A stretch of 64,000 nucleotides of DNA, taken from assembly GCF_900111165.1 (NCBI RefSeq), contig NZ_FOGH01000001.1:151841-215840 (forward strand), given 5' to 3'. Below are positions 8,672 to 20,665 of the stretch, piece after piece (position 1 is the first letter of the stretch; the number at the start of each line of letters is the position of its first letter). A program made the position numbers and the translations under genes. Origin of the DNA: Nitrosomonas sp. Nm51. Lineage in GTDB: Bacteria > Pseudomonadota > Gammaproteobacteria > Burkholderiales > Nitrosomonadaceae. Below the pieces are notes generated by a model. The model did not search any database, was not told the origin of the DNA, and saw only the letters and a list, made by a program, of their open reading frames with translations.

Positions 8672-9904
8672 TCAGAAACGGAAAATCCCGCTGACTGACA
8701 GCATGATCTGATCGTTATCCCTGAAGTTATCAAAAGCCTTATTTTCCGTCGTGCGATCATATCTGACCTCTGGCCGGATAGTGAAACCGGCAATCGGTGT
8801 ATAGTTCAATCCACCTGTCACGCCAATATAATTCTCGGCAAAACTATTTACGCGGGTGCCATCATCATCGCGGAACCACTCCATACGCAAGCCGGCAGCA
8901 AGATTGTGCATAATTTCGTAGAACAGATATTGATTCACGCCATACCATTCCGCGGAAGTGTTTGTTGATGTACTGCTTTCTACGCCCAGATCATGCTGCA
9001 ATACATAATGCAGCCTGTCGGTAATGTCATGTTCAAGCACAATGCTGTACATGGTCCGGTTGTGGTCGTCATGCGGACTCCCGGTTTCTACACTGCCGGT
9101 GATTAAAGACGCGGTCAGCGAGGTTCTCTCATCGTCTGTCGCATACGCAACACTGCCCAGGAAGTTTACCGGTTGATCGAAGTGCGCGTCCCATCCTGTC
9201 ACGGCACCGCCTCTCAACGTGATGTTGTCGGTCAGTTGATACGTCAGGTAACCGCCTGAATGCGTGAAGGGCTCGCCGTACTGCATTGTATAGGCATGCG
9301 AGAAAAAGAAGTTGCCCGCCGAAGGTACCGTTTCATATCCGATCATCGTATAAAAATGCCCCATTGTTGCGGTCAACCCATTGCCTATTGGCAGAAAAAC
9401 GTCCACATAAGCCTGCGGAAACGCCAGCTTACGCTGATTCGTATCATTCAGAATATTGGTGTCAAAATTTGATGCTGTTGTGAAACGCGCATCGGTTCCG
9501 TACAAGACGTCCGCGCGAAAACCGAAGCTGATTGAATCAGAAGCGGTATTAACTTCCCGTTCAATAATGCCATAGACCTGATGCAGCTTGAATTCATTTG
9601 GTCCATCATTAAATGTGACCGGTCCATTCCCGTGCGAACTTTTCGAAGTGCCGGTGTTACCAGAAAAGCCAATTTCAGTCCAACCCTTAAACTGTATACC
9701 TAGCGCCTGCATAAATGACGATTCATTATATTTATAACCTGTCAAACTCTCAATCAGCCCAGATTCGTCATCACTTGTAAGTTCATCGATTAAATCGCCA
9801 TAGCTTTCATGGCCACTATATTCCCAGTCTTCTGTATTAGCATGTGCCAGCGATGAAACAAAAAACGCGCCGCAAATGGCAAGCGTCAATTCTTTCATTC
9901 TCAT
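8672..9904 (-). CDS. Outer-membrane beta-barrel porin-like protein
   Basis: About 410 residues with a signal peptide (ELTLAICGAFFVSSLAHA). Alternating hydrophobic/polar strands follow and the C-terminal residue is Phe (LSVSGIFRF), the sorting signal for the Bam machinery. It resembles the putative beta-barrel porin-2 (OmpL-like) group: GWTEIGFSGN near the start of the mature part and repeated strands such as GGLNYTPIAGFTIRPEVRYDR. The start is uncertain. A strong GGAGG sits so that a TTG at 9922 would be best spaced, while ATGs at 9904 and 9898 are nearer the signal peptide. Transported solute unknown. Confidence 0.85.
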   Translation of the reverse strand: MRMKELTLAICGAFFVSSLAHANTEDWEYSGHESYGDLIDELTSDDESGLIESLTGYKYNESSFMQALGIQFKGWTEIGFSGNTGTSKSSHGNGPVTFNDGPNEFKLHQVYGIIEREVNTASDSISFGFRADVLYGTDARFTTASNFDTNILNDTNQRKLAFPQAYVDVFLPIGNGLTATMGHFYTMIGYETVPSAGNFFFSHAYTMQYGEPFTHSGGYLTYQLTDNITLRGGAVTGWDAHFDQPVNFLGSVAYATDDERTSLTASLITGSVETGSPHDDHNRTMYSIVLEHDITDRLHYVLQHDLGVESSTSTNTSAEWYGVNQYLFYEIMHNLAAGLRMEWFRDDDGTRVNSFAENYIGVTGGLNYTPIAGFTIRPEVRYDRTTENKAFDNFRDNDQIMLSVSGIFRF

Positions 9905-10250: not shown

Positions 10251-10448
10251 CTTGATGCGAATGCGATTATTAGACAGGTAAATGTTACGTTGACCAGTTA
10301 AGGTCATGCCGGCATCCCAATCTTGATGAGAATGTGACATTTGGCACTGTTTGTTTTGTGCACCGCATTTAAAGTGTATTCCTGTTAGAAGGAAACGACT
10401 CTTCGTTTTTCTTTGTTCGTCTATGTCCCTAAATTGGAGGAAATACAA

Positions 10449-12032
10449 ATGAACAAGTATGAAATCGCCGCTAATGGGATGCGCGACATATTCCGGAAGC
10501 AATCATTCAAGTTTTTGTGGGCGGTTGCGGCTGGAATTTTTCTGATGGCCGGGTTTATGCAAAATGCCCATAGCGCTGTTACATACCATGCCCTGCCTTT
10601 TAAAGCGGAAGATTTAAAAGCTGGAGAACGGGTCTCTACGGGAGATCATGCCAGCGGTATACAAGGCGAAGGAGAAGATTTTGGCGTAAAACGCTATTTG
10701 GGAAATAAAAAGTGGAGTCATGTTAAAAACGGCACCGATGGCAAGAAAAATACGGACTATCTGATATATGGCAAACCGGTTTATGCGATTGGTGACGGTA
10801 CGATAGTCGGTTGCTGGCGGAATGCCCCCGAAAATCCTCGTCCTGGAGAGCGGCATGCAAAAAAAGATAGAATTCCGGGCGGCGGTAACATGCTTTGGGT
10901 GGATCATGCCGATGGAACCAGAGTGCTCTATGCGCATATGATTCCAGGCTCAATTTATGAGAAATTATGTGCCAATAATGCCCAATTGTTTCCCAAGCCA
11001 AAATCCGACGCCAATCCAGAGGGTAATTATGTGATGTTGCCCGCCGGTAAAACGGTAAAGATTAAAAAAGGACAGTTTTTGGGAAAAGCGGGTAACTCAG
11101 GCAGTTCTTCCGGTCCGCATCTTCACCTCCATATGCAAAAAGCTGGAAAAGCCGCAAAAATGTTTTTCGAGCGCGGCTTGTATAAAAGCAGTGTCAATGC
11201 TGATCTGAACGGATGGAAAAATTTTGCTAAAAAAGAAATTCCGGATGGAAAAATTTTAATCTGGCCGCCGCGGACAGTGTTCAATGAGTACACACGCTTT
11301 GGTTATAAAGATGACGATTTCCAACGGTTGTTTGACCATCTGGTTGATTCAGGCTATGAACTGGAATGGATCGATGGATACAGTGTAAATAATCAGGGCT
11401 ACCTCAATTTCAGCTGGAAGCCGGCCTCAGGAAAGAAATGGAAAGCCTATTTCGGACAAACCGGCGCGCAGTATCAAAAGCGATATGACACCAACAAGAA
11501 TCTGGCCCCCATTTTTGTTGACAGCTACACAATCGGCGGAAAGGTCCGTTACAACGTGATTCTGAAAGCGGTGCCAGGCAATTACATGGCGCGTCATGGA
11601 TTGACCTATGATCAGCATATGCAGGTTATGAAGGAAGCGAAAAAAAGAAAACTTGAGCCGGTTAACGTTTCCGTTGCTTCCGTTGGGAATAACCTGAGTT
11701 ACACAGTACTTTACCGTAACCGCAATTATGGCGCCTGGAACATTAAATCCCGGATCAAAGAGGGCGATTACCAGAAAGTCTTCAACGATTTCAAGAAAGC
11801 CGGTAAAACACCTGTGTATCTCAATGCCTATAAACACAAAGGAACGACGTATTTTTCTGCAATTTTTGCAAAAAATGGCGGCGGCAGTTTAAAAGCCAGG
11901 CATGGTATGAGTGCATCCGTTTTGCAGAAAGAGTGGAAAAATGCCGTGGATAAAGGTTTTAACACCATGATTCTGACCGCATTTGACGGCGCTGCTTCAA
12001 AACACAGATTTGCGGGATTGTGGCGCAAATGA
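10449..12032 (+). CDS. M23-family metallopeptidase with C-terminal repeat domains
   Basis: 527 residues from the ATG at 10449, which follows TTGGAGGAAATACAA. A hydrophobic signal segment (LWAVAAGIFLMAGFM) precedes the mature part, so the enzyme is exported. The M23 domain covers about residues 65-235: an HVKNGTD segment, PVYAIGDGTIVG, LYAHM, GKAGNSGSSSGPHLHLHM with zinc-binding His residues. These enzymes usually cut peptide cross-links of peptidoglycan. The last 250 residues hold about four repeats of some 50 residues with the pattern G-Y-x-P-x-x-V/ID-x-Y (FVDSYTIGGKVRYN, YLNAYKHKGTTYFSAIF), resembling the bacterial tandem repeat/polyglycine hydrolase-like domain. The combination suggests a secreted hydrolase with a binding module. 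A candidate attenuator RNA lies upstream. Confidence 0.85.
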   Translation: MNKYEIAANGMRDIFRKQSFKFLWAVAAGIFLMAGFMQNAHSAVTYHALPFKAEDLKAGERVSTGDHASGIQGEGEDFGVKRYLGNKKWSHVKNGTDGKKNTDYLIYGKPVYAIGDGTIVGCWRNAPENPRPGERHAKKDRIPGGGNMLWVDHADGTRVLYAHMIPGSIYEKLCANNAQLFPKPKSDANPEGNYVMLPAGKTVKIKKGQFLGKAGNSGSSSGPHLHLHMQKAGKAAKMFFERGLYKSSVNADLNGWKNFAKKEIPDGKILIWPPRTVFNEYTRFGYKDDDFQRLFDHLVDSGYELEWIDGYSVNNQGYLNFSWKPASGKKWKAYFGQTGAQYQKRYDTNKNLAPIFVDSYTIGGKVRYNVILKAVPGNYMARHGLTYDQHMQVMKEAKKRKLEPVNVSVASVGNNLSYTVLYRNRNYGAWNIKSRIKEGDYQKVFNDFKKAGKTPVYLNAYKHKGTTYFSAIFAKNGGGSLKARHGMSASVLQKEWKNAVDKGFNTMILTAFDGAASKHRFAGLWRK

Positions 12033-12331: not shown

Positions 12332-12626
12332 TGGGTGACTCCTGTCTTTAGTCCGAAAACCTTGACACTACTACGTTTGAGCTAATTTTTGTAGATCTAA
12401 CTGAGGAAAATAGGTTAATGTGCTTGCTGAACTGATTCAAGTCGCTGATTGCAAGTTACTGGAATGCGTTAAACTTAATGGAGTAAATGAACGCGCAGTT
12501 TATTCAGAATTCTGCGTTCGCTTTCGAATTGGCTAAAACGAACATTCGTATTTTCGAAACATTTTCCTTGTGCCGACGATTCCTGAGGGTAAAATAATCC
12601 CGAAAACGGGGATTAAAAAAACGCGC

Positions 12627-14036
12627 ATGGGGCATGAAATCCACATTTTTTTGTCATACCGACAGAAAAATCCTGACGATATAAAAGCACGCGATATGCT
12701 TGCAGCATTATGCACCAAGCATGGATTTAAACTGATCTACGATGAGAATACACTGGGCGAAGGGGAAAACCTGACCCGGTTTATGAATGATCTCGGATCA
12801 GCGCGCTGTGTTTTGATACTTCTGAGTCCCGAATATTTCAAATCGGCCTATACCCTGTATGAACTCATCCGCATTTATGAAAATGCAGACCTGGACAGGC
12901 GCTTTATTTTTCCATTGCGCGCGACAGCGGATATGAGCGCATATGTAAAAACCGGTGCCAAAAATGACTGCTGGCTGAAAAGTGAAGCGGTGCGCAACGA
13001 ATTGTGCAGCAGGCTGAAAGAAAATGATGAAAGCGCAGTCTGGGAATGTGTTCTTGATGCCTGGGATGCGATCGTTGGCAAAAATCTGGATACGGTAACC
13101 CCGTCACTGGAACAAAACGGGCCTGAGGAGGTTCTGGAGGCAAAGCTTGCAACGGTCAGGGAAACCATCGATAAAGCAATTGCCGATGAACACGAACTGT
13201 TATGCAAAAGGATTCAATCAGAACTGACATTTTTTCTGGAAGAACACAATATTCCGCTGAAGCATTTGAAGCATAGGCTTGGACTTCTACCAGGTACCGA
13301 TATCGAAGAATTGGCCGAAGTCCTTGTGGAAAAACAAGTCAGCGACGCAATTGGAGCAATCACGGGGGTAATCACCAATCAGGAAGCGCAATTAAAACAG
13401 GATAACCGCTGGTATGAGGCGTTATCCGATGCGGAGCAGATCTGCGGCTGGCTGTTGATCGGCAGCGTCGATCCGGTCTGGTGGTTCCATCACCAGTTGA
13501 AAATGAAACACATTGGGAAAACGGATATCAGGAACCAGTTAATACTGGAGCATCATGCGTATGCTGAAGTGATTATTTCCCGCAGCATTCTGCGTAACGC
13601 CAGTTTCAGGCTGGACAAAAACAAAGCCGTGCCCTCGATAGATGCTGAGATCAATTTAATGGTGGTATTTGATGCTTCAAAAGATGCGCTAGGTCAACAG
13701 TTTTTGTCGGATATCTACAAAGATTTGTGCGATAAAAACAAGGGCCCGAATGACACGGACGAAATGATTGTGGATGAGGTTTATGGTCGGGCTTATGCGA
13801 TATATAAGTCCAAAGGAAGGCCTGTCTGTTATTTGCTGTCGCGTGATATTCTGAACCAGTTTGAGCAGCAATCCTGGTATGCCTACGCCAGACAGAAACT
13901 CACAGGTTATCTGCAGTTCGTTTACTGCGATATCCCTCCGCGCGATGAAGCACTGAAAACCATGCCTTCCAGTTTGGAAGAACAGGAGGGTTTGATCGGA
14001 CAAATCGGATATTTGCTGTCTTTGCGAGGCAGATAA
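12627..14036 (+). CDS. TIR-domain protein, putative effector of the DGR-linked system
   Basis: 469 residues from the ATG at 12627; a GTG at 12570 is in frame. The TIR domain occupies about residues 1-130. Strand 1 is EIHIFLSYR, then LIYDENTLGEGENL (BB-loop region), VLILLSPEYFKS, and YELIRIYE, where Glu79 is positioned like the catalytic glutamate of NAD-cleaving TIRs. The rest has a helical linker (residues 165-260) and a C-terminal alpha/beta region (INLMVVFDASKDALG, GRPVCYLLSRDIL) that I do not recognise. Bacterial TIR effectors typically degrade NAD+ or make signalling nucleotides when a partner senses a threat. Only 20 bp separate it from the MoxR ATPase, so the two are likely co-transcribed. 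NADase activity is inference. Confidence 0.85.
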   Translation: MGHEIHIFLSYRQKNPDDIKARDMLAALCTKHGFKLIYDENTLGEGENLTRFMNDLGSARCVLILLSPEYFKSAYTLYELIRIYENADLDRRFIFPLRATADMSAYVKTGAKNDCWLKSEAVRNELCSRLKENDESAVWECVLDAWDAIVGKNLDTVTPSLEQNGPEEVLEAKLATVRETIDKAIADEHELLCKRIQSELTFFLEEHNIPLKHLKHRLGLLPGTDIEELAEVLVEKQVSDAIGAITGVITNQEAQLKQDNRWYEALSDAEQICGWLLIGSVDPVWWFHHQLKMKHIGKTDIRNQLILEHHAYAEVIISRSILRNASFRLDKNKAVPSIDAEINLMVVFDASKDALGQQFLSDIYKDLCDKNKGPNDTDEMIVDEVYGRAYAIYKSKGRPVCYLLSRDILNQFEQQSWYAYARQKLTGYLQFVYCDIPPRDEALKTMPSSLEEQEGLIGQIGYLLSLRGR

Positions 14037-14056: not shown

Positions 14057-15082
14057 ATGTCGACACAACTTCCGCTTGAAAATTTTTTCCCGCAAGACCT
14101 GAAAATTTCAAATCCTTCGAGACAATTGCATCACCTGTTTGACGAACGGGATTGCTATGCGCTCTGGGCGGCGTATTCGGCGGGCAGGCCGTTGCTGGTG
14201 CGCGGCAAGCCGGGAACCGGGAAAAGCCAGTTGGCCAGAGCGATTGCCGAACAGCTCGGGTGGGCGTTTGTCAGCGAAGTGATTCGCGGCAATACCGAAT
14301 TGAGTGATCTTCACTGGCATTTTGACGCCATCGGCCGTCTGGGGGAGGCACAGGCGCGTGGTATTGCAGGAGATACACACGGCACGGACAGGCTCGATCC
14401 GCTCAACTTTCTGTCGCCGGGCGCTTTCTGGTGGGCGTTTCACTGGAAAAGCGCTGAGCAGCAATACACGGGCCGCAACAACCACTTGCGTCCCAAACCG
14501 GAAAAACCTGATGCGACAAACGAAACAGGAAAAAACTGGCAGCCTGAAACGGGCGGCGTGGTGCTGTTGCTCGATGAAATCGACAAGGCTGAACCCGATC
14601 TGCCCAACGGTCTGCTCGAGACACTCGGGCAGTACCGGTTCACCGTGCCGTACCTCAAAGATGACGTTACTGAAGAGTCAGTGAAAAACCCAATTGGTGC
14701 CGATCCATCCCGGGTACTGATTGTCATTACCACCAATGAAGAGCGCGAACTGCCGAGCGCGTTTGTACGCCGCTGCTTTGTCCATACCTTAACCATGGAA
14801 GATTCCACGAAAAAACTGGAAAATGGCCTGGAAGCGCGTGTCGACTGGCTGGTCAAACGCGGTCAACTTCATTTCGGCGCGCGAATTGCTGATGATGTAT
14901 ACAAAGTGGCGGCTGACTTGCTGTGGAAGGACAGAACGTCCGGTGCGCATCTGCGCTACCCGCCCGGGTTGGCTGAGTATATCGATCTGTTGAATGTGCT
15001 GCGGGATTTACCTAAACAGGAACAAAAAGATCGCTTGCAGAAAATTGCATGCTATGCGCTGCAAAAGGAAGCGGGCGATTAA
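14057..15082 (+). CDS. MoxR-type AAA+ ATPase
   Basis: 341 residues with one AAA+ domain. Walker A is GKPGTGKS (50-57), Walker B VVLLLDEIDKA (168-178), sensor 1 LIVITTNEERELP and an Arg pair (FVRRCF) that could include the arginine finger. DLPNGLLETLGQYRFTVP matches the MoxR/AAA_5 group. MoxR ATPases usually work with a von Willebrand A-type partner as chaperones or switches, and the next gene carries a vWA-like segment, which fits. It starts 20 bp after the TIR gene and ends 3 bp before the next start, so the three form a tight operon. Confidence 0.92.
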   Translation: MSTQLPLENFFPQDLKISNPSRQLHHLFDERDCYALWAAYSAGRPLLVRGKPGTGKSQLARAIAEQLGWAFVSEVIRGNTELSDLHWHFDAIGRLGEAQARGIAGDTHGTDRLDPLNFLSPGAFWWAFHWKSAEQQYTGRNNHLRPKPEKPDATNETGKNWQPETGGVVLLLDEIDKAEPDLPNGLLETLGQYRFTVPYLKDDVTEESVKNPIGADPSRVLIVITTNEERELPSAFVRRCFVHTLTMEDSTKKLENGLEARVDWLVKRGQLHFGARIADDVYKVAADLLWKDRTSGAHLRYPPGLAEYIDLLNVLRDLPKQEQKDRLQKIACYALQKEAGD

Positions 15083-15085
15083 ATC

Positions 15086-17971
15086 ATGGCATGGGGGCGG
15101 CTGGCGCTGATTCAGGCTGCGGGCGAGTCGGAACAGGTTTTGCAGCAGACGGCGGCGCTATTCGGTTACGAACAGTTGCCGTTGAACGATGCGTTGCAGA
15201 AAGACGGCGATTCAAAGCGGGTTGAAGACTTTGTTGCGGAAAAGAAACCGGAGCATAGCGTGCCTGCTGCAAAAATACGCAGACCGCCCGCGCGTTTCAT
15301 TTGCGTGACGCAAACCGAATTTCCGGGCGACGTTGAACAACCGCAACGTCCCGGCTATCTCGACGATCCTGAAAAACAACTAGCGTTGAACGACGGTAAG
15401 CCGGGAACATACGCTTTTGTACCGCCGCGCCCGCTGCTGCCGTTGGCGCGTCTGCTGCCGTTTTTGCTGAACAGTCTGGGCCAACCGGTGATGAGTAACC
15501 GGCTCGATCATCACCGGCTCGCACGCTGGATTACACAGGGCAAGCCGCTGCAACGGCTGCCGTACAAAAAACGGCAGCGCTGGCCGCAGCGGCTGCATAT
15601 TATCGTCGATTGCCGCGATGCGCTGGAGCCGTTCTGGTCTGATTTTGCATTGATTGTGAGCGCGCTGAAAAAACTGCTCGGCGACGAGGCGGTTGAATCG
15701 GTGCGGCTGGAACACGACCGGATGGACCGCGAAGACTGTCTGCGCATTACCTGGCTAGCCGGTGCCGTGGCAAAAGAAAGCGCCGCTCATGAAATTCAGT
15801 GGCAGCGCTGGCAATTGCCTTCGCCGGATACATCCATCCTGATACTGGGCGATCTGGGCGCAAGTGAGCCGGAAGGTAATGCCGCAATCCGCTGGCGGCG
15901 TTTTGCGCGCCGTTTGTACTTGCATGCTGCTCCTGTTGTCACGCTGAGTCCGGCACGGCAGTCTCCGCAAGATCCGGTGGCCTGCCGCATATTCCGGCCG
16001 CACGCGCTGAACGATCAGCGCAGCCTGCCGCGTCATCCCGGGCGCAGCGGTTTTGATTGCGGTGTTCAGGATGGCGATCAATTACAGGACTGCCTGACGT
16101 TTCTGTCCGCGTTGCCGGTGGTGGACAGCGGCCTGCTGCGCCGGCTGCGCGATGAATTGCGCTGGGGCGGCAGCGAACTGGAGAGTCTGCTCTGGAACCA
16201 TGTGGCTATCGACCGAATCGGGATCGGCATCCGGTTGAAAGAGCCAGTCGCAAAGTTATACCGGGAGCGCTACCAGGCGCAGTTTGCCAAAACCCTCCAG
16301 GCGGAAAAATTCTGGCGGATCGTCAATGTACATCACCGGAGCGCCTTTACCGGGTTGCGTCAACTGGAAAAACTGAATCAGTGTCTGTTCGAGGATCAGC
16401 AGGATGACGGCATGTTCGAGTATATGCAAAGCTTGTGCGCCACGCTTGCGAAGCCGGACGCGGACGCCGCGCGGCGCAAAATGCTGCAACAGCAATGCCG
16501 CACCGTTCTGGCTTCCGCACCACCCGGTATCTGGCAAGACCCGAATCGGAATTATCGCGAACTGGGTTATCAATTGTTTGCATCTGCATATGAAGATGAC
16601 ATCCGGGCTGGAAAATGGCCGCAATATCTGGAACCGGGGTTCGATCCGGCGCAACTGCGCTGGCTGTTCGATGACGATCAGCATGAACAGCGGGTAACGT
16701 GGCTGGTGGCGCAAACGGGCGACCAGGGGCAATGTGTATTGCTGCAACAGGACAAGGCGGATGCAGCGGGTCAAACGGTTGTTGCGCCTGTGGCTGCAAT
16801 ACAGGCGCAAGCGCAGATACCGCCGGTACTGACTCTGCCATCCGGTGAGCGTATTCCGGTTCAGCATGGCACGCACGTGCGCGTGCCGCATGACAAAGCG
16901 CTTGCGCTGCACACATTTTGGGAGCGGGTGCATCTGGAAGCCATGCAAAAACCCGCCTGGGCGCACGCCATTTATTGGGACAGTAAGCTTTACGCCAGCA
17001 TGACGCTGGCTGCCGCGACACACTATTTTTCCTGGGATGCGTTTCAACGAGAACGTGAAGGTATCTCACTGTATGGCTGGATCAATCAGGACCCGCAGGA
17101 TATTGTCCAATTTGATGACTGCGGCCTGTATTTCGATTTGACGATCAGCGGCGTCACCCAGCGCTTCCGCTGGATAGAGCCCGGCACGTTCCAAATGGGC
17201 TCACCGGAAACCGAGCTTGAGCGATTTGATGACGAAGCACAGCATCAGGTAACAGTCAGCAAGGGTTTCTGGCTTGCGGATACCACCTGCACGCAGGCGC
17301 TGTGGCAGGCGGTGATGAGGGAAAATCCGGCGCATTTTAAAGAGAGTGACGATAATCCGGTGGAGCAGGTGAGCTGGGATGATGTGCAACACTTTATCAA
17401 AACGGTGAATAAACAGCACCCGGCTGTTCAATTGCGACTGCCGACCGAAGCGGAATGGGAATACGCGTGCCGGGCAGGCAACGAAGCGCCATTTTCGTTT
17501 GGTCAAACGATGACTGCTGGTCAGGTGAATTTTGATGGTAATTTTCCCTATGCAGGTGGCCAAAAGGGTGATTATCGTGGGAAAACCGTTGCAGTCAAAT
17601 CATTACCAGCCAATCCGTGGGGACTGTACGAAATGCATGGTAATGTCTATGAGTGGTGTCAGGACTGGTACGGTGATTATCCGGCAGAACCGGTTACCAA
17701 TCCGCAAGGGCCGGCCGGCGGCGCGGGGCGTGTTATCCGCGGTGGTTCCTGGCTCAACCTCGGCGGGCGCGTTCGTTCTGCTTCCCGCAACTGGCGCAGC
17801 CCTGACGAGCGTAACGACGATCTTGGTTTCCGTCTTGCCCTGGGTCATGTTGAGCCCGGACAGGCCGGTCATGATGGACAGCCGCTGAGGGACGATGCGG
17901 CAGGCAATCATGACGCAAATCAGCAGGGAATGCTGAAGCGGTTGAAGCAGAAGCTACGAAAAAAACAATGA
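15086..17971 (+). CDS. DGR target 1: vWA-like plus FGE-fold variable protein
   Basis: A 961-residue protein. The first ~690 residues are not a family I can name. They include a proline-rich loop (YAFVPPRPLLPLARLLPFL) and a vWA-like strand (QRLHIIVDCRDALEPFWSDF, near 170) with a degenerate metal site. The FGE-sulfatase/C-lectin fold domain covers about 690-920: RFRWIEPGTFQMGS, LPTEAEWEYACRAG, NPWGLYEMHGNVYEWCQDW, GFRLALG. The active-site cysteines of true FGE are absent from the corresponding C-terminal stretch, so this is a binding scaffold. The variable region (residues 878-920) matches the downstream template except at adenines. A 41-residue basic tail follows. The HRDC gene start overlaps the stop (ATGA). 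It probably acts with the MoxR ATPase as the diversified sensor. Confidence 0.93.
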   Translation: MAWGRLALIQAAGESEQVLQQTAALFGYEQLPLNDALQKDGDSKRVEDFVAEKKPEHSVPAAKIRRPPARFICVTQTEFPGDVEQPQRPGYLDDPEKQLALNDGKPGTYAFVPPRPLLPLARLLPFLLNSLGQPVMSNRLDHHRLARWITQGKPLQRLPYKKRQRWPQRLHIIVDCRDALEPFWSDFALIVSALKKLLGDEAVESVRLEHDRMDREDCLRITWLAGAVAKESAAHEIQWQRWQLPSPDTSILILGDLGASEPEGNAAIRWRRFARRLYLHAAPVVTLSPARQSPQDPVACRIFRPHALNDQRSLPRHPGRSGFDCGVQDGDQLQDCLTFLSALPVVDSGLLRRLRDELRWGGSELESLLWNHVAIDRIGIGIRLKEPVAKLYRERYQAQFAKTLQAEKFWRIVNVHHRSAFTGLRQLEKLNQCLFEDQQDDGMFEYMQSLCATLAKPDADAARRKMLQQQCRTVLASAPPGIWQDPNRNYRELGYQLFASAYEDDIRAGKWPQYLEPGFDPAQLRWLFDDDQHEQRVTWLVAQTGDQGQCVLLQQDKADAAGQTVVAPVAAIQAQAQIPPVLTLPSGERIPVQHGTHVRVPHDKALALHTFWERVHLEAMQKPAWAHAIYWDSKLYASMTLAAATHYFSWDAFQREREGISLYGWINQDPQDIVQFDDCGLYFDLTISGVTQRFRWIEPGTFQMGSPETELERFDDEAQHQVTVSKGFWLADTTCTQALWQAVMRENPAHFKESDDNPVEQVSWDDVQHFIKTVNKQHPAVQLRLPTEAEWEYACRAGNEAPFSFGQTMTAGQVNFDGNFPYAGGQKGDYRGKTVAVKSLPANPWGLYEMHGNVYEWCQDWYGDYPAEPVTNPQGPAGGAGRVIRGGSWLNLGGRVRSASRNWRSPDERNDDLGFRLALGHVEPGQAGHDGQPLRDDAAGNHDANQQGMLKRLKQKLRKKQ
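17719..17847 (+). repeat. DGR variable region VR1
   Basis: 129 nt, aligned without gaps to the template repeat at 19470-19598. Before the last few bases there are 16 differences, every one at a template A (to C, T or G). The 5' block through TTCCTGG and the 3' block CTTGGTTTCCGTCTTGCCCT are invariant. The single C/G mismatch at the 3' edge (GGTCA here, GCTCA in the template) distinguishes the initiation-of-mutagenic-homing site from its template counterpart. Variable codons cluster in the C-terminal face of the FGE fold. Confidence 0.95.
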
Positions 17972-18462
17972 AATACCGTTTTTTCACCATACCGGTAAGT
18001 GATACAGTCAACGCTGCACATGAACTGAATCAATTCTGTGCGCAGCACAGAATTTGCGAAGTCGAAAAACACTTTGTGGCGCATGGCGCAGCCAGTTTTT
18101 GGTCATTTTGTGTGACATGGACCGATCAGGAAACTGCTCTGACTTCGGGCAGCGTCAGGCAGCGCAATGATAAAATCGATTACAAGGAATTGCTGGGCGA
18201 TGATGAGTTCACCCTCTATTCCCGGTTGCGCGTACTGCGCAAAACGATTGCTGAACGCGAAGGAACGCCGGCGTATAACGTATTCACCAATGCGCAACTT
18301 GCCGCCGTTGTGCAGCAGCGCATCACAACAAAATCGGCTTTGCTGGAAATCGAGGGCATAGGAAAAATGCGTGTAGAAAAGTATGCCGATGAATTGCTGG
18401 CATGTTTGAAAAATTTTTACGCCAGCGGTCACGCGGATGAAAAGAATACTGATCACACTTGA
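17968..18462 (+). CDS. HRDC-domain DGR accessory protein
   Basis: 164 residues. It starts MKYRFFTIPVSD and carries an HRDC domain at about 77-147 (LYSRLRVLRKTIAEREGTPAYNVF, ALLEIEGIGKMRVEKY), a nucleic-acid-binding fold of RecQ helicases and RNase D. In DGRs lacking a canonical Avd, HRDC proteins are known accessory genes next to the reverse transcriptase and may deliver template RNA or cDNA. The start overlaps the target-1 stop by 4 bp and the RT start lies inside its last codons, so all are translationally coupled. Its role in homing is inference from position. Confidence 0.9.
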   Translation: MKYRFFTIPVSDTVNAAHELNQFCAQHRICEVEKHFVAHGAASFWSFCVTWTDQETALTSGSVRQRNDKIDYKELLGDDEFTLYSRLRVLRKTIAEREGTPAYNVFTNAQLAAVVQQRITTKSALLEIEGIGKMRVEKYADELLACLKNFYASGHADEKNTDHT

Positions 18463-19444
18463 GGCCATTTCCGAGCGCAAGAATCTTGTGCTTGCCTTGC
18501 ATAAAGCAGCAAGGGGCAAGCGGCACCGGTCCGATGTGCAGGCTTTTTTTCACAATATGGATGCCAATTTGAACCGGTTGGGTCGAGATATTTGCCAATT
18601 ACGCCTGCCGTATGGGCTGTTCAGGACTTTTGAAATTCATGATCCGAAAAAACGCCTCATTCATGCGGCTTGTTTTGAAGACCGCGTTTTTCACCATGCT
18701 TTGATGAATCTTGCTGGTGAAGTATTGGAACGGGCAATGATGCCACAAAGCTTTGCCTGCCGTCGGGGAATGGGTGTCCATAAAGCAGCGAAAAAAGTAC
18801 AGCAGCTTCTATGCCGCAATACCTGGTATGGCAAAATCGATATCGATGGCTATTTTGCATCGATACCGCACGGCCGCCTGCTTGAAGTTTTGTTGCGCCG
18901 CTACAAGGGTGAGGCGTGCATTGCGCAATTCAAACGTATCATTGCCAGTTACCAGAGTGGCCCAGAAACTGGTTTGCCGATTGGATCGCTGACATCGCAG
19001 TATTTCGCCAATTATTATCTGGATGGTCTGGATCGGTTGTTGTCTGCATCGACTCTGGTCAAAGGACATGTACGCTATATGGATGATGTTATCTGGTGGG
19101 GTGATGACAGACAGTCGGTTCGCGACGTTTTGCAGTTTTTAGTTGAATGGTTATGGCGGGAAAGAACCCTAAAGATCAAGCCGAATGCGCAAATTCAACC
19201 GAGCAGCCATGGTGTGACCTATTGCGGCTTTCGTGTTTTGCGCGGCGCCATGCGCCTTAGTCGACGGCGCAAGCGGCGCTATCAGCAACGACGGCTCTAT
19301 TGGGAACAGCTTTGCCGGCATGGCGAAATCAGCCCGCAACAGCTACAGCGGGCATACGCCGGCGTGCAGGCTATTACCGCGCAAACTGATTCCCGTGCGT
19401 GGCGTATAGAAAACCTGCGCCGTCATCCCGCGTATGCGGTATGA
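18437..19444 (+). CDS. DGR reverse transcriptase
   Basis: A 335-residue reverse transcriptase. It has NLVLALHKAARGKRHR near the start, catalytic Asp135 in KIDIDGYF, GLPIGSLTSQ (179-188) and RYMDD (213-217) with the paired catalytic aspartates. The GxxTSQ form of motif 4 is characteristic of the DGR/retron-like clade, and no maturase or endonuclease domain is present, excluding a group II intron enzyme. It copies template RNA with adenine misincorporation in known DGRs. It overlaps the HRDC gene by 26 bp; the template repeat begins 25 bp after its stop codon. Confidence 0.96.
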   Translation: MKRILITLEAISERKNLVLALHKAARGKRHRSDVQAFFHNMDANLNRLGRDICQLRLPYGLFRTFEIHDPKKRLIHAACFEDRVFHHALMNLAGEVLERAMMPQSFACRRGMGVHKAAKKVQQLLCRNTWYGKIDIDGYFASIPHGRLLEVLLRRYKGEACIAQFKRIIASYQSGPETGLPIGSLTSQYFANYYLDGLDRLLSASTLVKGHVRYMDDVIWWGDDRQSVRDVLQFLVEWLWRERTLKIKPNAQIQPSSHGVTYCGFRVLRGAMRLSRRRKRRYQQRRLYWEQLCRHGEISPQQLQRAYAGVQAITAQTDSRAWRIENLRRHPAYAV

Positions 19445-19469
19445 TAATGGCGGGTGACAGATCAGCAAG

Positions 19470-19598
19470 CGGCGCGGGGCGTGTTATCCGCGGTGGTTCC
19501 TGGAACAACAACGGCAGGAACGTTCGTTCTGCTAACCGCAACAGGAACAGCCCTGACAAGCGTAACAACAATCTTGGTTTCCGTCTTGCCCTAGCTCA
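19470..19598 (+). repeat. DGR template repeat (TR)
   Basis: 129 nt identical to VR1 and VR2 except at adenines. It carries 28 adenines in the first 125 nt, arranged as ten AAC/AAT codons plus AGG and AAG in the frame used by the targets. Mutating AAC or AAT at both A positions can never give a stop; only the one AAG codon could become TAG. A longer open frame crosses the TR but lacks a ribosome site and is not called as a gene. It is transcribed as the RNA template downstream of the RT gene. Confidence 0.95.
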
Positions 19599-19759
19599 AC
19601 ATGCGGCCGGATGGTGCGTGAATGACCAGATCGTCATCCCGTTTTTTGCCGTGCGCAAGAACAAAAAGCCAGGCCGCCGGTACGCTAGTAATGCGCGTAA
19701 GTCCGCTGTGAACGCTTGCCGGGTGGCCGATTTGGTCAAATATACGATTCCTGGTGCCA

Positions 19760-20611
19760 ATGAAGCAATTGATTCACAATGTTCTTGACATGGAAACAGA
19801 GTTTCATGCCGGTTCTCCACCGGCGTTCCCGTATCCATGGGCGCCGGCATGGGGCGAAGACCGTTACGGTTTGTGGATGGCGCTGGATTTTAAGAGCGTG
19901 CGCACTGTTTTCCGCTGGATACTTCCGGGGATGTTCTGGATGGGTTCGCTTGAAAATGAGAACGGACGTTTTGACTGGGAAGACCGGCATCGTGTAACAA
20001 TCAGCCACGGTTTCTGGCTCGGTGAAACGGCGGTAACGCAGGCATTGTGGCGTGCGGTGCGTGGAGACAATCCGGGTTATTTCAAAGGAGACAATCTGCC
20101 GGTGGAACAGGTAAGCTGGGATGATGTTCAGGCATTTATCGAAACACTCAATCGTTTTCATCCGGCGCTCAAAACCCGCCTGCCGTGGGAGGCGGAATGG
20201 GAATACGCCTGCCGTGCAGGCAGTGAAACCGCGTTTCATTTTGGCGATGAATTGCATCTGGAAAAAGTCAATTACCGTGGCGTCTGGGATTTTAATGATT
20301 CAAATGGATGGGGGAAAGGGGCGCGGCGATCGACTGCCGAAGTTAAAAGCTATCCGTGCAACGCGTGGGGTTTGTATGAAATGCATGGCAATGTCTGGGA
20401 GTGGTGCGCGGATGCGTGGCAGGAACATTTAGGTAAGCAGCCTCAGGTGGATCCCTGGCGGCAAGACAAATTGGCCGGCGGCGCGGGGCGTGTTATCCGC
20501 GGTGGTTCCTGGTTCAACTTCGGCAGGCTCGTTCGTTCTGCTCACCGCTCCGGGTTCAGCCCTGACGGGCGTAACGACCTTCTTGGTTTCCGTCTTGCCC
20601 TAGGTCATTGA
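19760..20611 (+). CDS. DGR target 2: FGE/C-lectin fold variable protein
   Basis: About 283 residues, almost entirely one FGE-sulfatase-like domain: FRWILPGMFWMGS (about 51), GFWLGETAVTQALW, LPWEAEWEYACRAG, NAWGLYEMHGNVWEWC, RVIRGGSW, GFRLALGH. The last 43 codons are VR2 and the stop follows directly, so the variable face is the C-terminus. There is no signal peptide, so it is cytoplasmic. The start is uncertain: GTG 19754, ATG 19760 and ATG 19790 are all in frame with no strong ribosome site. It lies downstream of the TR, separate from the TIR/MoxR/target-1 operon, so a single TR serves two targets. Confidence 0.92.
   Translation: MKQLIHNVLDMETEFHAGSPPAFPYPWAPAWGEDRYGLWMALDFKSVRTVFRWILPGMFWMGSLENENGRFDWEDRHRVTISHGFWLGETAVTQALWRAVRGDNPGYFKGDNLPVEQVSWDDVQAFIETLNRFHPALKTRLPWEAEWEYACRAGSETAFHFGDELHLEKVNYRGVWDFNDSNGWGKGARRSTAEVKSYPCNAWGLYEMHGNVWEWCADAWQEHLGKQPQVDPWRQDKLAGGAGRVIRGGSWFNFGRLVRSAHRSGFSPDGRNDLLGFRLALGH
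20479..20607 (+). repeat. DGR variable region VR2
   Basis: 129 nt aligned to the template without gaps, with 17 differences before the 3' boundary, all at template A. It shares with VR1 the GGTCA 3' edge that the template lacks. Its set of changed positions overlaps but is not the same as VR1's, and where both changed the bases mostly differ, so the two were diversified independently. Confidence 0.95.
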
Positions 20612-20665
20612 GCTCAGGCAAAAAGGCGGGCAAAGTCATGCATTCGGCGGATAGCACGGACAGCT

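Follow-up and report, generated by a model that had tools for sequence, protein, structure and literature searches.

A diversity-generating retroelement of Nitrosomonas with at least three FGE-domain targets and the probable takeover of a NACHT sensor

Diversity-generating retroelements (DGRs), their HRDC accessory genes, targets served in trans and targets linked to MoxR ATPases are already in print. The excerpted text of PMC3521204 gives (I/V/L)GxxxSQ as a motif of DGR reverse transcriptases (RTs), and that of PMC3240598 reports that in Bordetella phage BPP-1 the initiation of mutagenic homing (IMH) site with its adjacent hairpin, together with upstream identity, is enough to target a new gene. 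Here we describe a DGR in a 64,000-nt stretch of the Nitrosomonas sp. Nm51 genome (the window, meaning the whole stretch analysed, which is part of contig C82 of a 3.24-Mb genome). As a sequence feature, it is certainly a genuine DGR. The novel part is the probable takeover, by its template, of a NACHT sensor encoded elsewhere, so that a single template likely keeps two predicted defence systems varying simultaneously. An earlier, sequence-only reading had described one template with two targets; the template stands, but there are at least three targets, because a third variable repeat (VR) lies on another contig. That VR, an HRDC gene and an upstream TIR/MoxR operon all go beyond the earlier reading.

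The core of the element consists of VR1 (17717..17844), a template repeat (TR; core 19468..19595, although adenine-only homology may begin a few bases earlier) and VR2 (20477..20604), all on the plus strand like the genes described below. The three align without gaps at the positions claimed for them, and were compared over the 128-nt TR core, which contains 29 adenines, with a hypergeometric test. VR1 differs from the TR at 18 positions, 17 of them template adenines (P 1.4e-12), and VR2 at 19, 18 of them adenines (P 1.6e-13); what remains in each case is the final position, where the TR has C and the VR has G. The 16 and 17 differences counted previously before the 3' edge are recovered once the first A of the core is omitted. 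In the frame of target 2, 28 of the 29 template adenines fall at codon positions 1 and 2. Within a 36-codon block, 15-17 of 27 A bases are changed and 0 of 81 non-A bases in each of VR1, VR2 and the remote VR3, which upholds the claim that only template adenines change. Among themselves the three VRs show 14-20 first- or second-position differences and not one at a third position.

The expectation that relatives, too, would vary only at adenines was very largely borne out. We tested five loci with 11 VRs, namely the window, L002 (Nitrosomonas), L003 (Accumulibacter), L004 (Planctomycetota) and L037 (genome G091), and found 163 adenine changes and 2 others, one in L002 VR1 and one in L003 VR2. 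The C/G mismatch that had been read as the mark telling IMH from its TR counterpart, IMH*, separates TR from VR in 11/11 cases across the five loci: the TR ends in AGC, and the VRs in AGG (10/11) or GGG (window VR1). The order target 1, HRDC, RT, TR, target 2 is kept in L002, L003, L004 and L037, with target 2 in the first three recognised through its open reading frame (ORF) and VR rather than by domain search. Two more loci, L038 (which did not fit the scan pattern) and L005, stand outside this count; the first TR/VR pair of each is changed only at adenines within the core, and the second L005 repeat pair is not DGR-like. In the fragmented G055 genome, two VRs differ from a 54-nt partial TR only at adenines, in a comparison that left out two further loci.

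The same signature is visible in protein variation. Over 120 of 1128 target-2 homologues, among the matches listed, median entropy was 3.19 bits at the 16 template codons whose first or second base is A and 0.21 bits at the other 20 codons (Mann-Whitney P 2.6e-7); before the VR it was 1.31 bits. Of the other alignments, A1 was built from 26 of a set of 28 homologues, without P0040 and P0043, together with L037 and L004; A3, made for folding, omitted those two loci.

The RT (335 aa, 18437..19444; Pfam RVT_1) carries IGSLTSQ at residue 182 and YMDD at residue 214, matching the (I/V/L)GxxxSQ and YxDD patterns, and its ORF ends 23-25 nt before the TR, much as first described. The best match in the PDB is entry 8ub7 (E 4e-37), a reverse transcriptase that we take to be the BPP-1 phage DGR RT, and the window RT also matches the PHROG 1423 reverse transcriptase (E 6e-79). 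This match, the SQ motif and the same anatomy in the window and four other loci support the proposal of adenine-mutagenic retrohoming. An HRDC-domain accessory protein (164 aa, 17968..18462; Pfam HRDC E 1e-18) is encoded between target 1 and the RT, with overlaps of 4 nt and 26 nt, respectively. Its gene lies 5' of the RT in 5/5 loci (window, L002, L003, L004, L037), and HRDC is present in L038 as well. Avd was absent from the Pfam matches of the eight window proteins scanned, a scan that shorter ORFs fell outside. When 125 family genomes were searched with the RT, five, including the host, gave full-length matches at E <1e-60, and 34 gave any match, many of them to partial or distant RTs.

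The region 3' of the TR (19596..19753) is likely part of the template RNA. It includes the block TGACCAGATC at 19623-19632, outside any VR, which is conserved in the five aligned loci (altered in L003, L004 and L037), as expected if the template RNA reaches beyond the TR. This conservation is of primary sequence only, downstream of the TR; the idea of a structured template RNA was dropped, as the 316-nt region was no more stable than shuffles (z 1.0). An Rfam scan gave two weak matches, both under the gathering score and outside the DGR, and promoter and terminator scans gave results at or below the level of shuffled sequence. We found no hairpin directly after the VRs. An 8-bp palindrome that includes the stop codon, TGAGCTCA, occurs at window 20609-20616 and L048 8103-8110; it stands 3' of the edge in VR2, VR3 and several relatives' VRs, and is not at VR1 or the L037 VRs. 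A prophage or viral origin was also considered and rejected: viral contigs gave 0 matches to an exact 33-base TR pattern, which detects close copies only, and no tRNA was found in the window.

A DGR footprint is a record of past copying, not evidence of present activity, and it is conceivable, although unlikely, that this genuine DGR is now inactive and its VRs a frozen record. Two other genomes bear on this. G075, a single-contig genome in which no template was found, nevertheless has clean VRs, so a clean pattern can outlive its template for a time: its NACHT-gene VR has 0 third-position differences from two other FGE genes, and 9 from a third FGE gene. G048 is not among the 34 of 125 genomes with an RT match, and its VRs differ mutually at 3-9 third codon positions, the outcome to be expected if VRs decay when no template renews them. 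In Nm51, by contrast with G048, the three VRs lack any non-A change in the codon block, and the HRDC, RT and target ORFs are open.

Two further observations concern these genomes. G075 (L095, L084) has three VRs of clean DGR pattern and a NACHT gene with an internal stop. On G048 contig C78, L096 5326-13849 contains a trypsin-like gene (below cut-off), a MoxR gene, two short FGE genes and an FGE target of 982 aa. In its ORFs of at least 120 aa neither an RT nor an HRDC was found, the G048 genome gave no RT match, and the system seems to keep its targets after loss of the retroelement.

Target 1 belongs to an operon. Its first gene encodes a TIR-domain protein, the predicted effector (488 aa, 12570..14036; Pfam TIR_2 E 3e-12), whose AlphaFold model matches TIR domains and whose C-terminal half is common to the V8-like protein P0031. 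This gene nearly abuts that of a MoxR-type AAA+ ATPase (341 aa, 14057..15082; Pfam AAA_5 E 5e-10) with Walker A and B motifs, and target 1 (961 aa, 15086..17971) follows 3 nt later as third gene. The C-terminal FGE/C-type-lectin domain of target 1 (residues 696-918, nt 17171-17839) holds VR1, and its N-terminal extension probably contains a degenerate vWA domain (residues 168-308, nt 15587-16009), as judged from fold and a weak profile. Target 2 (285 aa, 283 from ATG; 19754..20611) is an FGE/C-type-lectin domain only (PF03781, E 2e-44) and holds VR2 at its C-terminus, where its top PDB match, variable protein 1 of Treponema denticola (2y3c), points to a C-type-lectin fold. Outside the VR, parts of the two local FGE domains are alike, with 71% identity over 155 nt and 83% over 48 nt.

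Among relatives, the L037 gene at the MoxR position passes the bpMoxR PF20030 cut-off and its L004 counterpart falls just under it (26.4 vs 27 bits); target 1 of L002 is a short FGE protein with no MoxR upstream. The gene before MoxR encodes a TIR protein in L003, a trypsin-like protein in L004 (and, below cut-off, in G048) and an alpha/beta-hydrolase in L037. Because direct BLASTP of the TIR protein against the L037 hydrolase and the L004 peptidase gave no match, effector exchange is argued from gene position and one homologue, P0031. No VMAP was detected in the TIR protein at E up to 10, nor was there one among 25 of 40 families listed for 31 homologues, where divergent forms could be missed; a PDB fold search, led by TIR rows, barely probed the C-terminal half.

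These surroundings bear on what the targets do. What they vary might be adhesion, recognition between cells or a ligand that is secreted, and not sensors for defence inside the cell, an idea that draws on the FGE/C-type-lectin DGR targets of T. denticola, several of which are predicted lipoproteins in the excerpted report, and on the structural match of target 2 to a protein of that species. We regard it as quite improbable: the neighbours are a TIR protein and a MoxR-type ATPase, the gene before MoxR varies among relatives, and the remote target carries NACHT.

Some further features were noted around these genes and their homologues. At 10413-12032 the window encodes a protein that matches M23 peptidase once and the structural repeat BTRD1 five times. 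P0145, a metagenome protein, joins TIR and FGE in a single chain; across 93% of target 2, the two proteins are 58% identical. In L038 (G056), a DGR with its TR upstream, FGE targets, HRDC and RT lies beside an 836-aa LRR-Roc-COR GTPase protein, a predicted signalling protein. The FGE bodies of both L037 targets share 90 identical bases outside the VR (8902-8991 and 11701-11790), which suggests gene conversion between them.

A whole-genome search with the TR recovered the two local VRs, a match of equal quality on contig C77 and one weaker match on C58. On C77, the matching sequence forms the 3' end of a gene for a 1208-aa protein with NACHT (405-532, E 5e-11) and FGE (895-1205) domains, the arrangement of a NACHT/STAND protein, in which an NTPase is joined to a C-terminal domain; here FGE would be the sensor part. 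VR3 differs from the TR at 18 positions, 17 at adenines and the other at the edge base. Searched with their own TRs, genomes G091, G056 and G126 gave close matches to two local VRs only; G054, which belongs to the same genus, had in addition an FGE match at 73% and two short matches, and G125 had further matches at 70-80%.

On C58, two more FGE genes have VR-like ends (L049 6104-6943 and 8154-8621). These ends resemble the template family of L002, G048 and G075, and C58 has no RT match. The conserved gene next to both, presumably YicC, also neighbours the FGE genes in G075 and G048, and the two are likely orphans of an older DGR site.

The NACHT gene is also present in other Nitrosomonas, and 10 of the 101 genomes searched with the protein, including its own, match at E 1e-30 or better. 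The orthologues of G075 (74% identical) and G048 (67%) carry VRs that resemble the FGE genes of their own genomes, with 10 and 8 non-A differences from the L002 template, respectively; the window TR is further off, at 28 and 23 such differences. The NACHT VRs of G056, G025 and G092 are near none of the six templates compared (at least 26 non-A differences). Between the Nm51 and G075 NACHT genes, identity runs at 0.71-0.88 per 120-column step over the 1200 columns before the VR and is 0.877 over the final 114 nt ahead of it; inside the VR it falls to 0.56, returns to 0.83 over the next 100 compared columns (including the last 8 VR bases) and is then 0.64 over 58. Of the codons that keep the same residue, 26 of 86 differ silently in the 100-codon stretch leading up to the VR, and 11 of 19 within it. 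The low identity of the VR between high-identity adjoining flanks therefore implies that a VR-sized piece was replaced and the flanks kept. The window DGR probably overwrote a NACHT sensor earlier diversified by another DGR.

By analogy with BPP-1, where IMH, its adjacent hairpin and upstream identity suffice, the shared 3' end offers a plausible route for the takeover, although no hairpin of the BPP-1 kind was found here. We found no report, in the open literature searched, of a DGR target captured by another template family. The broader proposition, that DGR templates capture standing sensors from one another, so that an old Nitrosomonas NACHT-FGE end was rewritten and the TIR/MoxR and NACHT systems came to be driven in step, seems to us evenly balanced.

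VR3 might instead have arrived by gene conversion from target 2, and not by retrohoming of template cDNA. Both genes carry FGE domains, and the 12 bases after the edge are identical in VR2 and VR3; yet most of the post-edge bases are shared with the G075 orthologue, and VR3 has its own letters at template adenines, with 17 first- or second-position differences from VR2. Conversion is thus very unlikely, and delivery from the template remains our reading. That the three VRs are ordinary paralogous FGE domains, shaped by duplication and selection beside an unrelated RT, has virtually nothing left to recommend it: FGE domains are common and the local pair are partly alike outside the VR, but duplication does not fit a block in which adenines alone and no third positions have changed, nor the third-position differences of G048, and the adenine-only pattern in five loci rules it out.

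Overall, we have high confidence in the explanation as a whole, in which one template serves three FGE-gene 3' ends, two local and one in the remote NACHT gene, by adenine-error copying that diversifies sensors. The RT likely makes errors at adenines when it copies the template RNA, and the 3' ends of the three genes are likely replaced by the resulting cDNA, which would vary their predicted ligand-binding surfaces. The C/G edge may mark where homing starts, and the HRDC protein could help the RT or integration, standing in for Avd. Target 1, with its probable vWA, would sense an invader, signal via the MoxR-type ATPase and unleash the TIR protein; the NACHT protein would form a separate sensor, the second to be supplied by this template, and its gene was probably overwritten by the template after serving as another DGR's target. 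Such a system would be a further instance, in an ammonia oxidiser, of predicted bacterial immune sensors whose diversity is anticipatory and self-inflicted. The NACHT comparison also amounts to a natural experiment on a DGR gaining a target, with gene and flanks equal and the template different, and it makes the requirements for becoming a DGR target testable at the level of the 3' edge.

How, then, does this locus compare with known systems? It resembles the BPP-1 DGR in adenine-specific copying from TR to VR, in an IMH-like edge and in RT homology (taking 8ub7 to be that RT), and differs in having HRDC in place of Avd and no hairpin directly after the VRs. The gene order of BPP-1 is also different from that of the window, where the TR stands after the RT. 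With the T. denticola DGR (PMC4891356) it shares an HRDC accessory overlapping the RT gene, remote targets and an FGE-fold variable protein; several targets there are predicted lipoproteins, and the excerpted text makes no mention of TIR, MoxR or NACHT partners. Because of the probable degenerate vWA in the extension of target 1, the local system resembles a MoxR-vWA conflict system. The MoxR-vWA-VMAP ternary systems, as excerpted from Kaur et al. 2020 (PMC7159879), likewise combine a MoxR ATPase, DGR linkage, an exchangeable effector and a vWA-like protein fused to an FGS/FGE domain; unlike them, the window has no detected VMAP, and its vWA is seen only by fold and a weak profile. Also among the closest systems are the Clade 5A DGRs known from multicellular bacteria (Thiohalocapsa PB-PSB1 DGR 8 and relatives; PMC10907252). 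That paper is reported to have detected no predicted domain in the target extension, where target 1 of the window has a probable degenerate vWA, and the window differs from Clade 5A as described there in sharing its template with a NACHT gene on another contig.

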